The notes under the pieces are model-generated. The model was not told the DNA's origin and ran no database searches. It saw only the letters and a program-made list of their open reading frames with translations. A DNA stretch of 27,382 bases, taken from positions 1-27,382 of the IMG/VR virus record IMGVR_UViG_3300021962_000522; one strand, given 5' to 3'. Below are positions 1,580-10,784 of the stretch, one piece after another. Both the position numbers and the translations under genes were made by a program. The stretch comes from a virus. The number at the start of each line of letters is the position of its first letter. The stretch's first letter is position 1.

Positions 1580-4500
1580 TATTCTGCTGATGGGAACGCT
1601 CCTTTAGGTCCGTAATATTTTATGAACTTATCATAAGCCGTTGCCCCCGGTCTTAATCCAAAATAAAAATGAAATCCAGTTGATAATGTTTGTAATGAAC
1701 CAGCATAGTTATTTGCTGTTGGGAAAATAAACATTTCTGTATTGTTAGCACCTTGATTGCTTACATAAGCAATTGGTGAACTCCACGCACCATTAAGTAC
1801 TACTCTGATGTTACCAGTGTATGGGTCTTTTCTAAACCCACTTGCACCATATGTTATAACTTCTAACCATAAATCACCTTCTACATATAGTGTTGCGTTT
1901 GGTGGTGTAGTTCCTGACAATGTGATAACTTCAAATCTTTCTAACATATCAGGGAAATTACCTGTATACGAAAAAGTTCCGTGAGTTTTAGTCATCGGTT
2001 TCATAATATATTCTTCTTCACCATCTGCCATTAAATAATTTGTTGTAGTTGCAGTACTACCAGATAATGATAACATTCTTTGTAGTGGTCTAACCGCTAT
2101 CGCATTTCTTTTAAACGATTGAAAGTCGTTTACACCAAATCCCTCAGCAAGTTTGTCCCACAAATAAAAAGGAACTTCTTGTGTATAATCACCAAGTCTT
2201 TTATTTAAACACAATCTAACCGTTCTACCATTTTGATCTAATTTAAAATCAATAGGTGTTGCCCCCCAAGAACCATCACCATTTTTAAAATATGATGCAT
2301 ATGTAGGGTCTTCTGGGTCTAGGTATTCACCATTGAAAATAAAGTATTGTACTGTATCTAAGTCAAATGCCTCAATACCTGCTTCACAGTTTATTGACAT
2401 AAGTTGTCTAATATCACCATCTAATACTCTCATATTAGACCCCATACCTTGACCAGTAAAGAAATCATTAATATCAAATTTAGCCTGGCTAGCATCCATT
2501 CGATAGTTTATAACATGTTCTAAAACCTGTCCAGGATCTTGATATGATGTTACAGTTAAATCTCTAATAACTGAACAGTTTGGATCTACTTGTGGATCAA
2601 AACAAATTTCATCAAAAAATTCATCTCTAACACCAACGTCATAAAATGTTGTTGGATGTAATAACTCTACATATGTCCCAACATTTTGACCAATAAAAGT
2701 TTTTGTTGTTGGGTTATATGGTGTTGATCTATAATAAAATTTTTGATCCAATACATTATAAAAAACTAACTCTCTTGGGAATTTTGACCCTCTTTGATTC
2801 AAATCAAGAACACTAACGTTATCCCATCTTAGAGTAAAATCAAATTTAAAGAAATATAATAAACCGTTTAACCAGTTATCTACATATGAATAATTTACAA
2901 CTCCCCCACAGAAATATGCGCCAACTCTTTTTCTACGATACCACTCTAAAATAACATTGGTGTTTTTTGTTTCACCATCAATTACCGGGATAACCGTAAA
3001 CACACCATCTCTAATTTCTGTTAATCCTGATTTTGTTTTTCTATCATATGTGGCATTAGAAATTTTTCTCCATGCTTGCTTATATGGCAATCTTCTAGTG
3101 GATGCCCCGCCTGAAATTGTTGATAATAACGAATGAGCACCGCTTGGTGATGTTGCTGAAGTTTGTTCAAGATAACCAGTAGAATATGTTGGTGGGTTTA
3201 ATGGGTCTGTTGGTGACCCATATGTCCCCGTTCCAAAGAAATATTTATAAGCATTAGCTTCATTATAAAACTTATCATATTTTTCACAACCACTTTCAAT
3301 TGATAAAGTAGTACCAACTAATGATGGATCTTTAATTGTTGCTCTATCATAAATTCTTAAAACAGTATTGTTTGGAACAATACCTGATTCATCTAAATTT
3401 ACCCCCGTAATATCTAACCATTCTTGAATGGTAAAACTAATATATTTTGCACCATTCACAACACTACCACCAACAGTTGGTAAAAACGAAGTCATAATAA
3501 TATCAAGAATTGGATCACTACCAGACGTATATGTTCTAACAGTAATATCAGATGAATCTGTGTGTGAAGCTAAAGGTTTAAGAGCACCAATAAAGGGGGT
3601 AAAAGACCCTTGAGTACCTGAACTTGGTGACGGGTAGAATTCAGCATAGTATCTGTGATTGGACGATGGATCGTCCGGAACTGTTGCAGTCAAAGAAGAT
3701 ATCCCATCTAATTGTGAATATGATGGTGATGTTGTGCCACTACATTGTCCTCCATTATCTTTGGCATATTGACCAACAAATCTGTCTGGTAAAAAAGTAG
3801 GGTCGGTTGTTAAATTTTTATATTTAGCAGAACTAGCATTATTTGGTATAACTAAAAGAACCCCTTTACCAAGTCCGAGAGCAACATCAAATTTAAAACT
3901 ATAAAAACTAGCCTCTGAAACTCTACAATAATTGTTAGAACTAGAAATATCTTTAACAATACCACTATCATCTGTTGAACATTCTTCACAATCCGGATAA
4001 ACTGTTAAAGACAATTGTTGTGTTAATCTATCTGAAATTCTGTATGCTAAGTCTTTTAATTGTTCTGAAAATCTTTCAAATGGTCTCCAGTTAAATGGCC
4101 AACCAAAATATATGTCATAGAAAAATTGAGCAACACTCCAAAAGAAACTACCAACTAATTCAGCGAACTTTAATAAAACAATTGAATAAACAAATTGAAC
4201 GAACAATAATATTTCCGCAATTATCAAATTAAATTTGATTCTATTTTTAAAACCAAAGTTTGTTGGTAAATAATTTGCATTACCCGAACAATCATCTTCA
4301 GCGTTTGGTCTAATTTCTTTTATACCTAAAAAAGCGTCTCTTCTTGATAAACCAAAAAAACTTTCAATGGCTGATGTTTCATAGTGTGATCCCTGAAAAG
4401 AAGATGGGGTATATACTTTACCATAAATAAATTTATAGAAATAGTCTTTTGGAATATAATCAGGGTATTCCCCTAACATCAATTCTTTTTTGTGCGTTCT

Positions 4501-5820
4501 TTGTGATGTTGTTAAAGATTCCAATGTAACACCTGTTGGTGCCGGAACTCTAAAATAATCTTCAAAAACATTTGAAAATGTATATGTTGATAATAAAGCT
4601 TCGCTATATTCACCGTTGTTATTAGTACCGTTTGTGTAATTATTAAATTCACGAATGTTTGGTATTAAATAATGTCCTGATTGTGTTCCCTTTCTTGCTT
4701 GCTGATCGCTATTATCTAGCGACATTCTAAGACGAGCAACAGTTGTTGTTGGAATACCTTTATTTGAATCATTGGTAATTTCTAACTCACCAAATTCATT
4801 TGTGTAGGTATAATCCATATTCATTTCAACAACCATCATTGATGAACCATCTTCTTCAATTATACCTGGATTAAAATATTCTAATTCCGGATATATTGAA
4901 ACACCATCAGAGCCAATAACTTTTTTACCCGTATATCTAACACCCTCAATAGAACCAGTTTCCGTTTGTAGATTACACTTGTAACCTGTTTTCATTCTGA
5001 TTACACCACTTTTCTTTACCGCATCTGATTCATCATCTGTTACACTTGAAACTAAAACTAGAGATATTGGTGCTACTTTAATACCAAAGTTTGATAGGTC
5101 AAAATCAACTCTATTGATTCCAATTTGGCATAAATCTTTATTACCCCAAAAAGGAGCAACTTCCACAGCCCTTTTAAATGATACAATCTGTGGTAACCCG
5201 TCTAAATCACTATCTGATTTAAATCTGTAAAATCTATCAAATCTATCTTCAGAGGTTCCTTGTCTAATAAAATCATATGGTCTAAGTGAAAAACAACCCA
5301 TATCTGATAAGTCAATATCAACATGAATTTGTTGATCGCCAAGAGGGACTCCCCAGATCATGAAATCACCCGCAGAGTTTGTTTTTGCTGTATATCTGTA
5401 ATATTTTTCAAAAACTTCTAAACACTCTTCTCTGGTTAAAATATCTTCTTGATCAAAAAAAGTACCAGTTGGGGTATGTCCACCATGTTGTTTTCTAGAT
5501 GGTAAAAGATTGTAACGATAACCATCTTCATTTGAATCAGTGGAGATTTTATAAGGATATAAAGCAGAAACAACCGGATCGGTTTCATCTATGTCATTTA
5601 TTGGCACAAATATTGAAACCCTAGCATTAGGTACACCAAATCCGTTATTTACAACAACTCTACCACACACAACGCCATAATCGGCGCATATTGATGTATA
5701 AGCTTCTTGTTGAGTAAACTTTAATGACAGAATCTCTAAAAGATCAAAATCTTGCTTAAGCTCGATATTAATCGTTTTGTCTGTACCAATCTCTGTATTA
5801 ATACGGTGCTTTTGAATCAT
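1579..5820 (-). CDS. Large baseplate/tail structural protein (1413 aa) with Ig-like N-terminus and hydrophobic central segment
   Basis: This is a very large virion-type protein directly downstream of the gp6-like gene. Residues about 50-170 resemble carboxypeptidase-regulatory/Ig-like folds: GRVVVNNGFGVPNARVSI, a later polar stretch, then AKTNSAGDFMIWGVPLGDQQI. Residues about 529-578 form an unusually hydrophobic, aromatic-rich segment (start FNLIIAEILLFVQF, end FGWPFNW) that would score as one or two membrane helices. It is followed by a Cys pair (YPDCEEC, about 608-614). The C-terminal half is beta-rich and Gly/Thr/Ser-rich, as in fibre or baseplate proteins. The ATG at 5820 follows a 59-nt gap after gp6 that contains a TATTTATA box. 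The hydrophobic stretch could bury in a trimer core or contact a membrane during infection; both are inference. No family name can be given with certainty. Confidence 0.85.
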   Translation of the reverse strand: MIQKHRINTEIGTDKTINIELKQDFDLLEILSLKFTQQEAYTSICADYGVVCGRVVVNNGFGVPNARVSIFVPINDIDETDPVVSALYPYKISTDSNEDGYRYNLLPSRKQHGGHTPTGTFFDQEDILTREECLEVFEKYYRYTAKTNSAGDFMIWGVPLGDQQIHVDIDLSDMGCFSLRPYDFIRQGTSEDRFDRFYRFKSDSDLDGLPQIVSFKRAVEVAPFWGNKDLCQIGINRVDFDLSNFGIKVAPISLVLVSSVTDDESDAVKKSGVIRMKTGYKCNLQTETGSIEGVRYTGKKVIGSDGVSIYPELEYFNPGIIEEDGSSMMVVEMNMDYTYTNEFGELEITNDSNKGIPTTTVARLRMSLDNSDQQARKGTQSGHYLIPNIREFNNYTNGTNNNGEYSEALLSTYTFSNVFEDYFRVPAPTGVTLESLTTSQRTHKKELMLGEYPDYIPKDYFYKFIYGKVYTPSSFQGSHYETSAIESFFGLSRRDAFLGIKEIRPNAEDDCSGNANYLPTNFGFKNRIKFNLIIAEILLFVQFVYSIVLLKFAELVGSFFWSVAQFFYDIYFGWPFNWRPFERFSEQLKDLAYRISDRLTQQLSLTVYPDCEECSTDDSGIVKDISSSNNYCRVSEASFYSFKFDVALGLGKGVLLVIPNNASSAKYKNLTTDPTFLPDRFVGQYAKDNGGQCSGTTSPSYSQLDGISSLTATVPDDPSSNHRYYAEFYPSPSSGTQGSFTPFIGALKPLASHTDSSDITVRTYTSGSDPILDIIMTSFLPTVGGSVVNGAKYISFTIQEWLDITGVNLDESGIVPNNTVLRIYDRATIKDPSLVGTTLSIESGCEKYDKFYNEANAYKYFFGTGTYGSPTDPLNPPTYSTGYLEQTSATSPSGAHSLLSTISGGASTRRLPYKQAWRKISNATYDRKTKSGLTEIRDGVFTVIPVIDGETKNTNVILEWYRRKRVGAYFCGGVVNYSYVDNWLNGLLYFFKFDFTLRWDNVSVLDLNQRGSKFPRELVFYNVLDQKFYYRSTPYNPTTKTFIGQNVGTYVELLHPTTFYDVGVRDEFFDEICFDPQVDPNCSVIRDLTVTSYQDPGQVLEHVINYRMDASQAKFDINDFFTGQGMGSNMRVLDGDIRQLMSINCEAGIEAFDLDTVQYFIFNGEYLDPEDPTYASYFKNGDGSWGATPIDFKLDQNGRTVRLCLNKRLGDYTQEVPFYLWDKLAEGFGVNDFQSFKRNAIAVRPLQRMLSLSGSTATTTNYLMADGEEEYIMKPMTKTHGTFSYTGNFPDMLERFEVITLSGTTPPNATLYVEGDLWLEVITYGASGFRKDPYTGNIRVVLNGAWSSPIAYVSNQGANNTEMFIFPTANNYAGSLQTLSTGFHFYFGLRPGATAYDKFIKYYGPKGAFPSAE

Positions 5821-7713: not shown

Positions 7714-8166
7714 TTATATATTAATAATTATAAAATCAGAAGAACCAAACGCACCGTTATTGGTTGTATAGTCAATTCTTATTTTAGCAGTATATGGTTT
7801 TGTTGATGCGTCACTAACTCTAAAAAGTCTAGCATCACTTTCCTCACTAACAATAGACTGTTGTTCTGGGTCTAATTCTGCGTTTGTTATTTTTATTGCA
7901 TTTATTTCTAAATTTGGTATGTATTTTCTAACCGAATCTCTGATTTCATCCTCTATGTGAGCATACGTCACACTATCGTTCAAATCGAATATATATTCAT
8001 ATAAACGACTACCAAAATCAGGTAAAAAATATCTACTACCTTTTCTTGTTAATAAAAGATGTATGAGATTAGCGCGTATCTCTTCCTCAGTGGTGATAGT
8101 CATTTTAACATAGTCACCAATCTTACTCTGTCTGAACGGAAAATCTAAACCGTATTTTGTAGCCAT
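7714..8166 (-). CDS. Baseplate wedge protein, T4 gp25-like
   Basis: I place the start at the ATG at 8166 (MATKYGLDFPFRQSKIGDYV), giving 150 residues, close to T4 gp25 (132). The diagnostic gp25 segment is present: EEEIRANLIHLLLTRKGSRY followed by FLPDFGSRLYEYIFD. T4 gp25 has the equivalent pattern, with early LL..R.GER/GSR and P.FGS, and joins the tail sheath to the baseplate wedge. The frame stays open upstream to a GTG at 8340, but that 58-codon extension runs through an intrinsic terminator and stable hairpins, reads as low-information hydrophobic sequence, and has no counterpart that I know in the family. The sequence before 8166 is A/T-rich without a Shine-Dalgarno, as for the other genes here. 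Confidence 0.88.
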   Translation of the reverse strand: MATKYGLDFPFRQSKIGDYVKMTITTEEEIRANLIHLLLTRKGSRYFLPDFGSRLYEYIFDLNDSVTYAHIEDEIRDSVRKYIPNLEINAIKITNAELDPEQQSIVSEESDARLFRVSDASTKPYTAKIRIDYTTNNGAFGSSDFIIINI

Positions 8167-8196
8167 AACAATAAATATAAACAATACCAAAATGGT

Positions 8197-8204
8197 TATA
8201 AATA
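8197..8204 (-). promoter_or_regulatory. TATTTATA box upstream of the gp25-like gene
   Basis: The octamer TATTTATA on the gene strand follows the T-run of the nrdA-distal terminator directly, 30 bases before the gp25 ATG. A terminator followed at once by a promoter-like box would start a new transcription unit for the second baseplate block. Because it overlaps the AT-rich end of the terminator tail, it may be incidental. Confidence 0.3.
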
Positions 8205-8238
8205 AAAAATCGCGACACTTCCTAAAAAATGTCGCGAT
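8204..8238 (-). terminator. Intrinsic terminator after nrdA
   Basis: On the minus strand a perfect 9-bp stem, ATCGCGACA (8238-8230) with TGTCGCGAT (8217-8209), encloses a 12-nt loop and is followed by a run of T (8208-8204). The geometry is that of a Rho-independent terminator for transcripts coming from nrdA. The 3' arm can alternatively pair with an upstream segment (8247-8239). Confidence 0.8.
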
Positions 8239-8338
8239 AAGTGTCGCAATAATAGTGACTTGATATTCGCCCCCCTGTATTAAATCAAGCCCTGGATGCT
8301 CAAGGTACGCCTTGACGACAGTAAACTTTGAGGGAGCC
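8204..8338 (-). ncRNA. Candidate structured small RNA or attenuator between nrdA and gp25
   Basis: Between the nrdA stop (8349) and the gp25 start (8166) lies a stretch about 50% G+C over 8259-8340, against roughly one third around it. In the sense of the minus strand it contains a 6-bp hairpin with a 4-nt loop (UCAAGG, loop CGUA, CCUUGA; 8315-8300). A second 6-bp stem (CUUGAU 8289-8284 with AUCAAG 8264-8259) has a 19-nt loop containing GGGGGGC. An upstream GCUCCC (8337-8332) can pair with that loop to form a possible pseudoknot. At the 3' end is the terminator with a competing alternative stem. This is the layout of a terminated small RNA or regulatory leader. I do not recognise a known RNA family, and no promoter for it is evident, so it could be processed from the nrd transcript. 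Confidence 0.5.
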
Positions 8339-8348
8339 ACCCATTATC

Positions 8349-10784
8349 TTACGATCCACATCCCTCACACTCAAATGGTGAATCTGTGGGTCTTTCACTC
8401 GTCATAACCAATTCTGGTGTATTTTCGCTGATAATGGTATTATTTGTTGGTGTTACATATGTCACACTTTGTTGTACTGGTTGTTCCGCTGGTTTAGCTG
8501 TTGATGTATCGATACCAAGACCTTTTAATGCGTCTACCGCAGATCTTGTTCTTAAATAATACATACCAGTTTTTAATCCCATTTTCCAACCATATAAATG
8601 TGCTGCTAATAATTTTGGTTTTGTTGCATTGTCAATAAATAAGTTTAAAGACTGTGATTGATCAATAAACACACTTCTATTCGCTGACATTGTCAAAATT
8701 CTTTTTTGCGACATCTCCCAAACAGTTTTATAAACCTCCTTTACTTCCACCGGAATTTCTGGAATGTTTTGAACTGACCCATTTTCCATAATCAATTTCT
8801 TCTTAATATCATCATTCCATAAATTCAATTTAAGAAGTTGATTTACCAGGTGTTTATTGATTACAATAAACTCACCACCCAATGTTCGACGAGAATATAA
8901 ATTAGTTGTAAATGGTTCAAATGCTTCGTTATTACCTAAAATTTGTGCAGTAGATGCTGTGGGCATTGGGGCAACCAATAAAGAGTTTCTAACACCATTG
9001 TTAACAACCTCTTTTCTTAATTTTTTCCAATCCCATCTACCTGACAAATCTTTATCTGTTTTACCCCACATCTCAAATTGGAACACACCTTTTTCAATTG
9101 GTGATCCAACAATAGATTCATATGGGCCATATTGTTTTGCTAAATCATTTGATGATGTCATCGCAGCAAAATAAATTGTTTCAAAAATATCTGTCTGCAA
9201 CTTATCCGCTTCATCGCTTTCAAATGGTAAATTTAACATACAGAATACATCAGCTAAACCTTGCACACCTAAACCAATTGGTCTGTGTTTAAAGTTTGAA
9301 TTTTTGGTTTCCTCTGTTGGATAGAAATTTAAATTAATAACATTATTTAAATTCTTAACCACTTGATATGTGTAATCATATAATAATTCATGATTAAACT
9401 CACCATCAATAATATATTTTGGTAAAGCAATAGATGCTAAATTACATACCGCTTGTTCTGTTGGAGAACTATACTCAATAATCTCAGTACATAAATTTGA
9501 GGATTTAATTGTTCCAAGATTTTTTTGGTTTGACTTATAGTTCGCAGCATCTTTATATAACATGTACGGAGTTCCAGTTTCAATTTGTGCTGTTAAAATA
9601 GCATCCATTAATTTTCTAGCTTTAACAACCTTTCTTGCTTTACCTTCTTGCTCGTATTGAGTATATAGTTCTGTGAAATTTTTTTGTGTTGGTGTATCAT
9701 ATACATCAGATAACCCTGGAGCTTCATCAGGAGAAAATAATGACCAATCACCATCTTCTTCTACACGTTGCATAAATAAGTCAGGTGTCCACATTGCTAA
9801 GAATAAATCTCTAGCACGCATTTCTTCTTTACCATGATTTTTTCTTAAATCAATAAATTCAAAAACATCCGCATGCCAAGGTTCTAAGTAAATAGCAAAT
9901 GACCCTTTACGTTTTCCACCTTGATTAATCCAACGAGCAACCTCATTATATGTTTTCATCATAGGTAATAAACCATCAGATTCACCACCTGTGCCTTTAA
10001 TGTAAGCACCTTTAGCACGAACATCATGTACATGAAGACCGATACCTCCAGCCCATTTAGAAATCTTTGCTACATCTTTGATTGTATCAAATAGTCCATC
10101 AATATCGTCTCCTTTGTTTCCAATTAAGAAACAAGATGACATCTGTGGTCTACGTGTACCAGCATTAAATAATGTTGGTGTAGCATGTGTATAAAAATGT
10201 TGTGATAAATCATCATAGATTCTTAATGCCATTTTAATATCGCCACCACAAATACCGACAGCAACTCTCATATACATGTACTGAGGTCTTTCTACAACAC
10301 GATTAGCAATCTTTAATAAGTAAGAACGCTCTAGTGTTTTAAAACCAAAATATTCAAAATCAAAATCACGATCTAAAACAATTGCACCATCAATAATTTC
10401 TTTGTTTTCCATAACAAACTCATAAACATCATCAGCAATTAGTGATGATTCTTTACCTGTTCTTGGCTCAACAAACGAATGCAATTCTTTTATTGCTTGT
10501 GAAAACTTTTTAGGTGTTGTTTTGTGTAAATTAGTTACCGCTAACCTACCCGCTAATTTTGCGTAGTCCGGGTGTGTTGTTGTCATGGAAGCCGCAGTTT
10601 CTGCAGCTAATACATCCAATTCTGATGTTGATATACCATCATAAATTCCTTGAGTAACTTTTAGTGTAATAAACGTTGGGTCAATATATTCAGTATTAAG
10701 ATCATCACATAGAGCACTAATTCTTCTAGTGATCTTGTCATATCTCATTTCTTCTAATTCACCATTTCTCTTTTTTACTTTCAT
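8349..10784 (-). CDS. nrdA: Ribonucleoside-diphosphate reductase, large (alpha) subunit, class Ia
   Basis: This subunit reduces NDPs to dNDPs with NrdB, supplying dNTPs for phage replication. It is 811 residues long. An N-terminal ATP-cone (MKVKKRNGELEEMRYDKITR, through about residue 90) suggests allosteric control of activity. Active-site residues are all visible: Cys218 in MSSC, then Asn430, Cys432 and Glu434 in SSNLCTEI, and Cys447 in AVCNLASIALP. The radical-transfer tyrosines Tyr742 and Tyr743 are in GMYYLRTR, and the C-terminal shuttle pair Cys806/Cys809 is in FECEGCGS. Motif wording and numbering are closer to the eukaryotic/Bacteroidota type than to E. coli NrdA. The start follows 20 bases after the nrdB stop. 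Nothing appears broken. It is the last gene of the replication block and is followed by a terminator. Confidence 0.97.
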   Translation of the reverse strand: MKVKKRNGELEEMRYDKITRRISALCDDLNTEYIDPTFITLKVTQGIYDGISTSELDVLAAETAASMTTTHPDYAKLAGRLAVTNLHKTTPKKFSQAIKELHSFVEPRTGKESSLIADDVYEFVMENKEIIDGAIVLDRDFDFEYFGFKTLERSYLLKIANRVVERPQYMYMRVAVGICGGDIKMALRIYDDLSQHFYTHATPTLFNAGTRRPQMSSCFLIGNKGDDIDGLFDTIKDVAKISKWAGGIGLHVHDVRAKGAYIKGTGGESDGLLPMMKTYNEVARWINQGGKRKGSFAIYLEPWHADVFEFIDLRKNHGKEEMRARDLFLAMWTPDLFMQRVEEDGDWSLFSPDEAPGLSDVYDTPTQKNFTELYTQYEQEGKARKVVKARKLMDAILTAQIETGTPYMLYKDAANYKSNQKNLGTIKSSNLCTEIIEYSSPTEQAVCNLASIALPKYIIDGEFNHELLYDYTYQVVKNLNNVINLNFYPTEETKNSNFKHRPIGLGVQGLADVFCMLNLPFESDEADKLQTDIFETIYFAAMTSSNDLAKQYGPYESIVGSPIEKGVFQFEMWGKTDKDLSGRWDWKKLRKEVVNNGVRNSLLVAPMPTASTAQILGNNEAFEPFTTNLYSRRTLGGEFIVINKHLVNQLLKLNLWNDDIKKKLIMENGSVQNIPEIPVEVKEVYKTVWEMSQKRILTMSANRSVFIDQSQSLNLFIDNATKPKLLAAHLYGWKMGLKTGMYYLRTRSAVDALKGLGIDTSTAKPAEQPVQQSVTYVTPTNNTIISENTPELVMTSERPTDSPFECEGCGS

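Follow-up and report, generated by a model that had tools for sequence, protein, structure and literature searches.

A recurrent pseudoknotted RNA of uncultured phages, found downstream of nrdA and within tmRNA and RNase P RNA

What fills the 182-nt space between a ribonucleotide reductase gene and a baseplate gene in a phage genome? The question arises in a 27.4-kb virus record (IMG/VR IMGVR_UViG_3300021962_000522; all 27,382 nt are referred to here as the window), in which the element of interest and both flanking genes lie on the minus strand. Upstream is nrdA, encoding the ribonucleotide reductase (RNR) large subunit (8352..10784, stop codon 8351-8349; PHROG 84, E 4e-202), and downstream is a gp25-like baseplate wedge gene (7714..8166; PHROG 261, E 1e-16) whose true start, ATG 8166, is kept in relatives. 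The space contains a G+C-rich structured stretch and a terminator. A sequence-only reading had proposed a structured, GC-richer RNA-like element here, and the composition is real, with 50% G+C at 8259-8340 versus 31.8% in the window, a level that only 0.5% of 82-nt windows attain. Folding energy by itself is modest (z -2.7 for the intergenic minus strand and -2.4 for the plus strand), so that the case for an RNA rests on conservation and covariation in relatives.

A search with gp25 collected 80 relatives, many of which have the element in the space that separates gp25 from an RNR large-subunit gene. The whole element, about 95 nt (8255..8350, minus strand; AAGAUAAUGGGUGGCUCCCUCAAAGUUUACUGUCGUCAAGGCGUACCUUGAGCAUCCAGGGCUUGAUUUAAUACAGGGGGGCGAAUAUCAAGUCAC, 5' to 3'), is the region of our model R1, is matched by model R2, and is kept in relatives. 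R2 scores 8266-8344 of the minus strand at 82.7 bits, with an E value of 6e-15 that is rough, since near-identical relatives went into building the model. Mean column identity of the element is 87% in gp25-locus relatives, and flanks and terminators differ. Indels of 1 to 3 nt in loop regions distinguish close relatives and shift the frame, which excludes an open frame through the element. An N-terminal extension of gp25 was rejected on these indels and on the conserved gp25 start, and with it falls the one coding interpretation that the earlier reading had named as fatal to its proposal.

The terminator drawn in that reading is a strong one. The intrinsic hairpin ATCGCGACA..TGTCGCGAT-T6 (8209..8238, minus strand, T-run 8209-8204) is the best of 4 terminator-like sites, against 0.2 expected. 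A second 9-bp stem, GCGACACTT/AAGTGTCGC (8212..8247, minus strand), overlaps it and uses its 3' arm; this stem is probably incidental, because it is absent or disrupted in the close relatives L002 and L004. Directly 5' of gp25, an AT-rich motif (GTTTATATTTATTG..ATG, 8166-8202, minus strand) is present in nearly all relatives, even with a different upstream gene, and is likely a late promoter. Gene order and the terminator suggest that in this phage the nrdA transcript ends in the RNA and is completed by the terminator.

The family module is compact and pseudoknotted, about 80-100 nt long, and consists of helix P1, hairpins P2a and P2, a pseudoknot, and a closing helix X (minus-strand positions throughout). 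P1 joins UGGGUG (8338..8343) to CAUCCA (8293..8298) and occurs in relatives as GGGUG/CAUCC, GGAUG/CAUCC, GGAAG/CUUCC, and GGGUG/CACCC. It is among the helices best supported by covariation, and the sequence-only reading missed it; every helix that the reading did draw is supported. A CUG/CAG stem in place of P1, preferred by RNAalifold, was rejected, as it is broken in L047, L009, and L035 and P1 covaries. Hairpin P2, UCAAGG-CGUA-CCUUGA (8300..8315; strands 8310-8315 and 8300-8305, loop 8306-8309), is exactly the tetraloop hairpin first proposed, with both-side changes at 5 of 6 pairs in alignment A3, our diverse set of 32 sequences. The small hairpin P2a (AG UUUA CU, 8320..8327) is a stem of 2 to 6 pairs in nearly all relatives and has double changes at all 3 pairs in A3. 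The pseudoknot forms through a G-rich loop, as anticipated, by pairing of GCUCCCU (8331..8337) with GGGGGGC (8269..8275), a covarying strand in which the window carries one G more than its relatives. Six of its 7 pairs form in all 66 distinct cores compared, and the third pair occurs as UG, GU, AU, CG, and UA.

Helix X pairs GGCUUGA (8285..8291) with UCAAGUC (8257..8263), one pair longer than the second stem of the earlier reading, and an A-U pair has switched to U-A in 7 of 23 sequences. Its 3' strand directly follows GAA, and the position of its 5' strand varies between phages, lying between P1 and the pseudoknot in the window, L208, L209, L215, L218, and L227 and upstream of P1 in L202, L205, L214, L219, L230, and the copy in helix P3 of RNase P RNA. 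Either arrangement is possible in L224 and L228, and neither is clear in the tmRNA copies, L210, and L213. The two positions converge on P1 at its outer end, and comparison therefore suggests that helix X stacks on P1 and merely closes the fold. The unpaired segments CAA, GUCG, CGUA, AUAC, and GAA are near-invariant.

Relatives give this fold strong statistical backing, and so the proposal also survives the other refuting condition set in the sequence-only reading, a lack of conservation or covariation. Across 23 sequences, 97.0% of pairs are standard in the structure as drawn, compared with at most 51% when strands are slid, and 34 cells show double changes versus 9 in shuffles (0/500). In A3, 98.7% of pair cells are standard, slid structures reach at most 58%, 14 of 22 pairs have double changes, and covariation is present in every core helix. 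Double-change cells there number 83, against a shuffled mean of 21 (0/500 shuffles on every measure), a contrast to be read knowing that the structure was drawn from the tested sequences and that relatedness among rows can by itself raise values above those of shuffles. Without a real structure, however, the slid controls and the variety of pair types would be hard to explain. P1, P2, and the pseudoknot are each backed by compensatory change, and the element almost certainly represents a new family of phage non-coding RNA.

Evidence of spread is apparent, with the RNA found in about 130 viral contigs, most of them after one of two unlike nrdA types (ending ...FECEGCGS and ...CVSCEA) and about 26 elsewhere. 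After nrdA, the median distance from RNA to terminator is 38 nt. Six relatives (L085, L088, L089, L091, L101, and L105) have a shorter, different RNR large subunit ending CVSCEA or CVSCDG before gp25, and the RNA between the two genes is unchanged, a gene replacement at one locus. In the distant gp25 relatives L058-L065, a short form lies in the 3' region of another gene and is followed by a terminator.

A degenerate pattern search returned 93 viral contig stretches, and those examined were by nrdA and/or gp25 with a single exception, a 430-kb jumbo-phage contig in which the RNA is inside the tmRNA gene (Rfam RF00023, 38 bits with a cut-off of 47, E about 1e-13; tag ending AIAA). Two more contigs have it inside tmRNA, L211 (48.3 bits, above the Rfam cut-off) and L225 (by sequence). 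A second pattern located the RNA in L189, immediately upstream of an RNase P RNA of the phage (RF00010, 81 bits), and a third added some 24 contigs in which it lies away from nrdA-gp25. In L220, helix P3 of RNase P RNA contains it (R1 match 5072-5153, RNase P match 5056-5389), an arrangement that L204 resembles by sequence, with a weak Rfam match. The RNase P RNA genes are themselves phage encoded (L189 11749-11420, minus strand, and L220/G051 5056-5389), scoring 81 and 78 bits where the Rfam cut-off is 100. The RNA also occurs in the tRNA arrays of L200, L201, L203, L209, and L227, and in tmRNA, RNase P RNA, and tRNA arrays alike it is sense to its carrier. In L218, it runs against the direction of a tight operon behind a promoter-like site, TTTGCA-17-TATAAT, whose -10 TATAAT ends at 4140 and predicts a start on the first G of P1; this is a single case, with 3 promoter-like sites there versus 1.7 expected. 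Orientation is also opposite to the neighbors in L215. Since the same RNA type occupies so many other places in other phages, its position at the border of replication and baseplate blocks, which the sequence-only reading had noted, is accidental. An orphan tmRNA pseudoknot was likewise rejected as a general answer, because the RNA also stands alone, belongs to tRNA arrays, and adjoins RNase P RNA or lies within it.

Genes of homing endonuclease type adjoin several copies: HNH_3-type genes in L207, L214, L219, and L230, a weak GIY-YIG match in L211, and candidate endonuclease genes, recognized by a cysteine/histidine motif only, in L202 and L221. In the four HNH_3 loci, the pseudoknot strand AGGGGG lies just 5' of the GTG start and could be its ribosome-binding site. 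Two near-identical phages, L205 (10810-11697) and L207 (1-1229), differ in that a 342-bp stretch with an HNH gene immediately follows the RNA in one and is absent in the other; beside the lost gene, the RNA is identical and the flanks are kept. A partner RNA for HNH genes was considered and rejected, as 4 of 80 HNH relatives have the RNA and it survives loss of the gene.

Copy number is low, counted as a lower bound per genome on records that are fragments. Among 33 whole records of up to 430 kb, model R1 found one copy in 29, two in G061, and none at E 0.01 in G052, G060, and G008. G052 and G060 hold a short CCGA-loop form that R1 scores too low and R2 finds; R2, run on 20 records, gave one copy in 18, two in one, and none in G008. 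At the nrdA-gp25 locus, the RNA has been gained or lost about 5 times, and it was not found by either model in the 251-kb relative G008, indicating that it is dispensable at this locus. Among the close relatives here, G008 alone has a tmRNA that is complete and ordinary, a single case that carries no weight. That tmRNA (L115 1501-1897, minus strand; G008 39720-40116) has an unusually long tag, GNVYNNMEVAGLLATSNVAVA. No tmRNA was seen in any element-bearing nrdA record searched, all fragments, or by ARAGORN in the window. In L020 (3435-3515) and L024 (4877-4957), AAGATAATGGGTAATACCCATAAAG retains the 5' part with the rest gone, a possible relic of the RNA (R1 16 bits, E 0.2, not significant).

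What the RNA does must account for this distribution. Protection or processing of the carrier, with the knot blocking exonucleases or marking a processing end and so stabilizing nrdA mRNA, tmRNA, RNase P RNA, or tRNA precursors, would suit a compact knot, its P1 and pseudoknot strands contiguous, that lies just before terminators at the nrdA transcript 3' end and is also found next to RNase P RNA and within tRNA arrays. It is an unlikely explanation all the same, as there is mostly one copy per phage rather than one per transcript, neither tmRNA nor RNase P RNA normally needs it for stability, and stand-alone copies have no cargo. A self-cleaving ribozyme that cuts its carrier, whether of a novel class or diverged from the HDV-like type, seems distinctly improbable: cleavage would split tmRNA or RNase P RNA, and the linker that would have to supply the invariant catalytic C of J4/2 reads AUAC, AUAA, or AUGA. 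Where a hairpin precedes the second pseudoknot strand, the strand order does fit the HDV-like P1-P2-P3-P1-P4-P2, and HDV-like theta ribozymes likewise occur beside phage tRNAs (PMC10879173).

Control of the next gene in cis, as a riboswitch or attenuator, is harder still to credit. The genes downstream are unrelated (gp25, tRNAs, RNase P, HNH, helicase), in most places no start codon follows closely, and the ZTP riboswitch is unmatched in Rfam; what speaks for it is the type I strand order, equal to that of the ZTP riboswitch, and four HNH loci, where the AGGGGG strand could hide the ribosome site. At nrdA-gp25, terminator sequences are unrelated among relatives, yet a terminator persists with or without the RNA, so that of the "terminated small RNA or regulatory leader" originally envisaged, the structured, terminated non-coding RNA stands and the leader is unsupported; an attenuator of gp25 was rejected on the same variation. 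We give equally little weight to a DNA site, such as an origin, packaging, or homing target, that forms hairpins by chance. The usual single copy per record and the neighboring HNH and GIY-YIG homing endonucleases would fit such a site, but G-U pairs in many cells are as expected of RNA, the element is sense to its carriers, and most HNH relatives lack it.

Action in trans by binding a partner is the reading that we tentatively prefer, and it is the most likely one because a single copy usually suffices and the carriers differ, from an mRNA 3' end, tRNA array, tmRNA, or RNase P RNA to a unit of its own. The near-invariant segments would present a fixed three-dimensional surface to a conserved host or phage factor, for which the RNA could serve as a decoy or binding platform, with stable or terminated transcripts borrowed as carriers. 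It is conceivable, if far from assured, that a widespread and hitherto undescribed small RNA serves phages as an effector in trans, usually from a single copy, and that the phage's own tmRNA or RNase P RNA can take it up as an added domain. Near letter-for-letter conservation in otherwise unrelated phages suggests a common target within the bacterial cell, and such an effector might act as a decoy for a conserved host factor, be it an RNA-binding protein, a component of the ribosome, or a defense enzyme. If its partner were identified, a strategy general among phages would come to light, and some of the unknown RNA in uncultured phages would be accounted for. The small, well-defined structure makes synthesis, probing, and pull-down straightforward.

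Comparison with known systems sets the family apart, as the sequence-only reading had supposed. Rfam 15 has no match in the window, where at E<=10 only weak matches far under threshold appear, or in the element itself at eleven other loci. Among 50,697 records of phage isolates, the window-type element has no match, and seven other element types gave only a chance-level E of 0.9; none was found in 72,556 plasmids, nor in 84,980 prokaryote genomes, which were scanned with a strict pattern only, and the prokaryote genomes searched encode no gp25 relative. The open-licence literature yielded no published description of the RNA, and one may have gone undetected.

Several known RNAs nevertheless invite comparison. 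In the ZTP (pfl) riboswitch, a hairpin loop pairs back with an internal loop of the long hairpin that precedes it, and type I of the new RNA is alike in strand order; its core is not matched to pfl in Rfam scans, and it is not upstream of purine or folate genes. HEARO is a structured RNA known from phages or beside endonuclease genes, and GOLLD, ROOL, and HEARO RNAs are all much longer than the new RNA, which lacks an Rfam match. GOLLD and ROOL are likewise known from phages or by endonuclease genes (PMC12286853). With HDV-like and theta ribozymes, type II members such as L202, L213, and L221 fit the nested double pseudoknot order, both kinds of RNA being found near phage tRNAs, whereas type I, to which the window belongs, has helix X around the second strand. 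Theta and HDV ribozymes require an invariant catalytic C as the first base of J4/2 (PMC10879173). Membership was rejected because this base is not conserved in the new RNA, where AUAAC also occurs as the linker before the second pseudoknot strand; the P3 equivalent, moreover, combines a 6-bp tetraloop hairpin with an additional one, and the RNA is not confined to tRNA 3' ends. As for tmRNA, the RNA elsewhere has no tRNA-like domain or tag, and the window element has no RF00023 match, whereas three jumbo-phage tmRNA genes hold the RNA between tag and tRNA-like 3' end, in the pseudoknot region of tmRNA.
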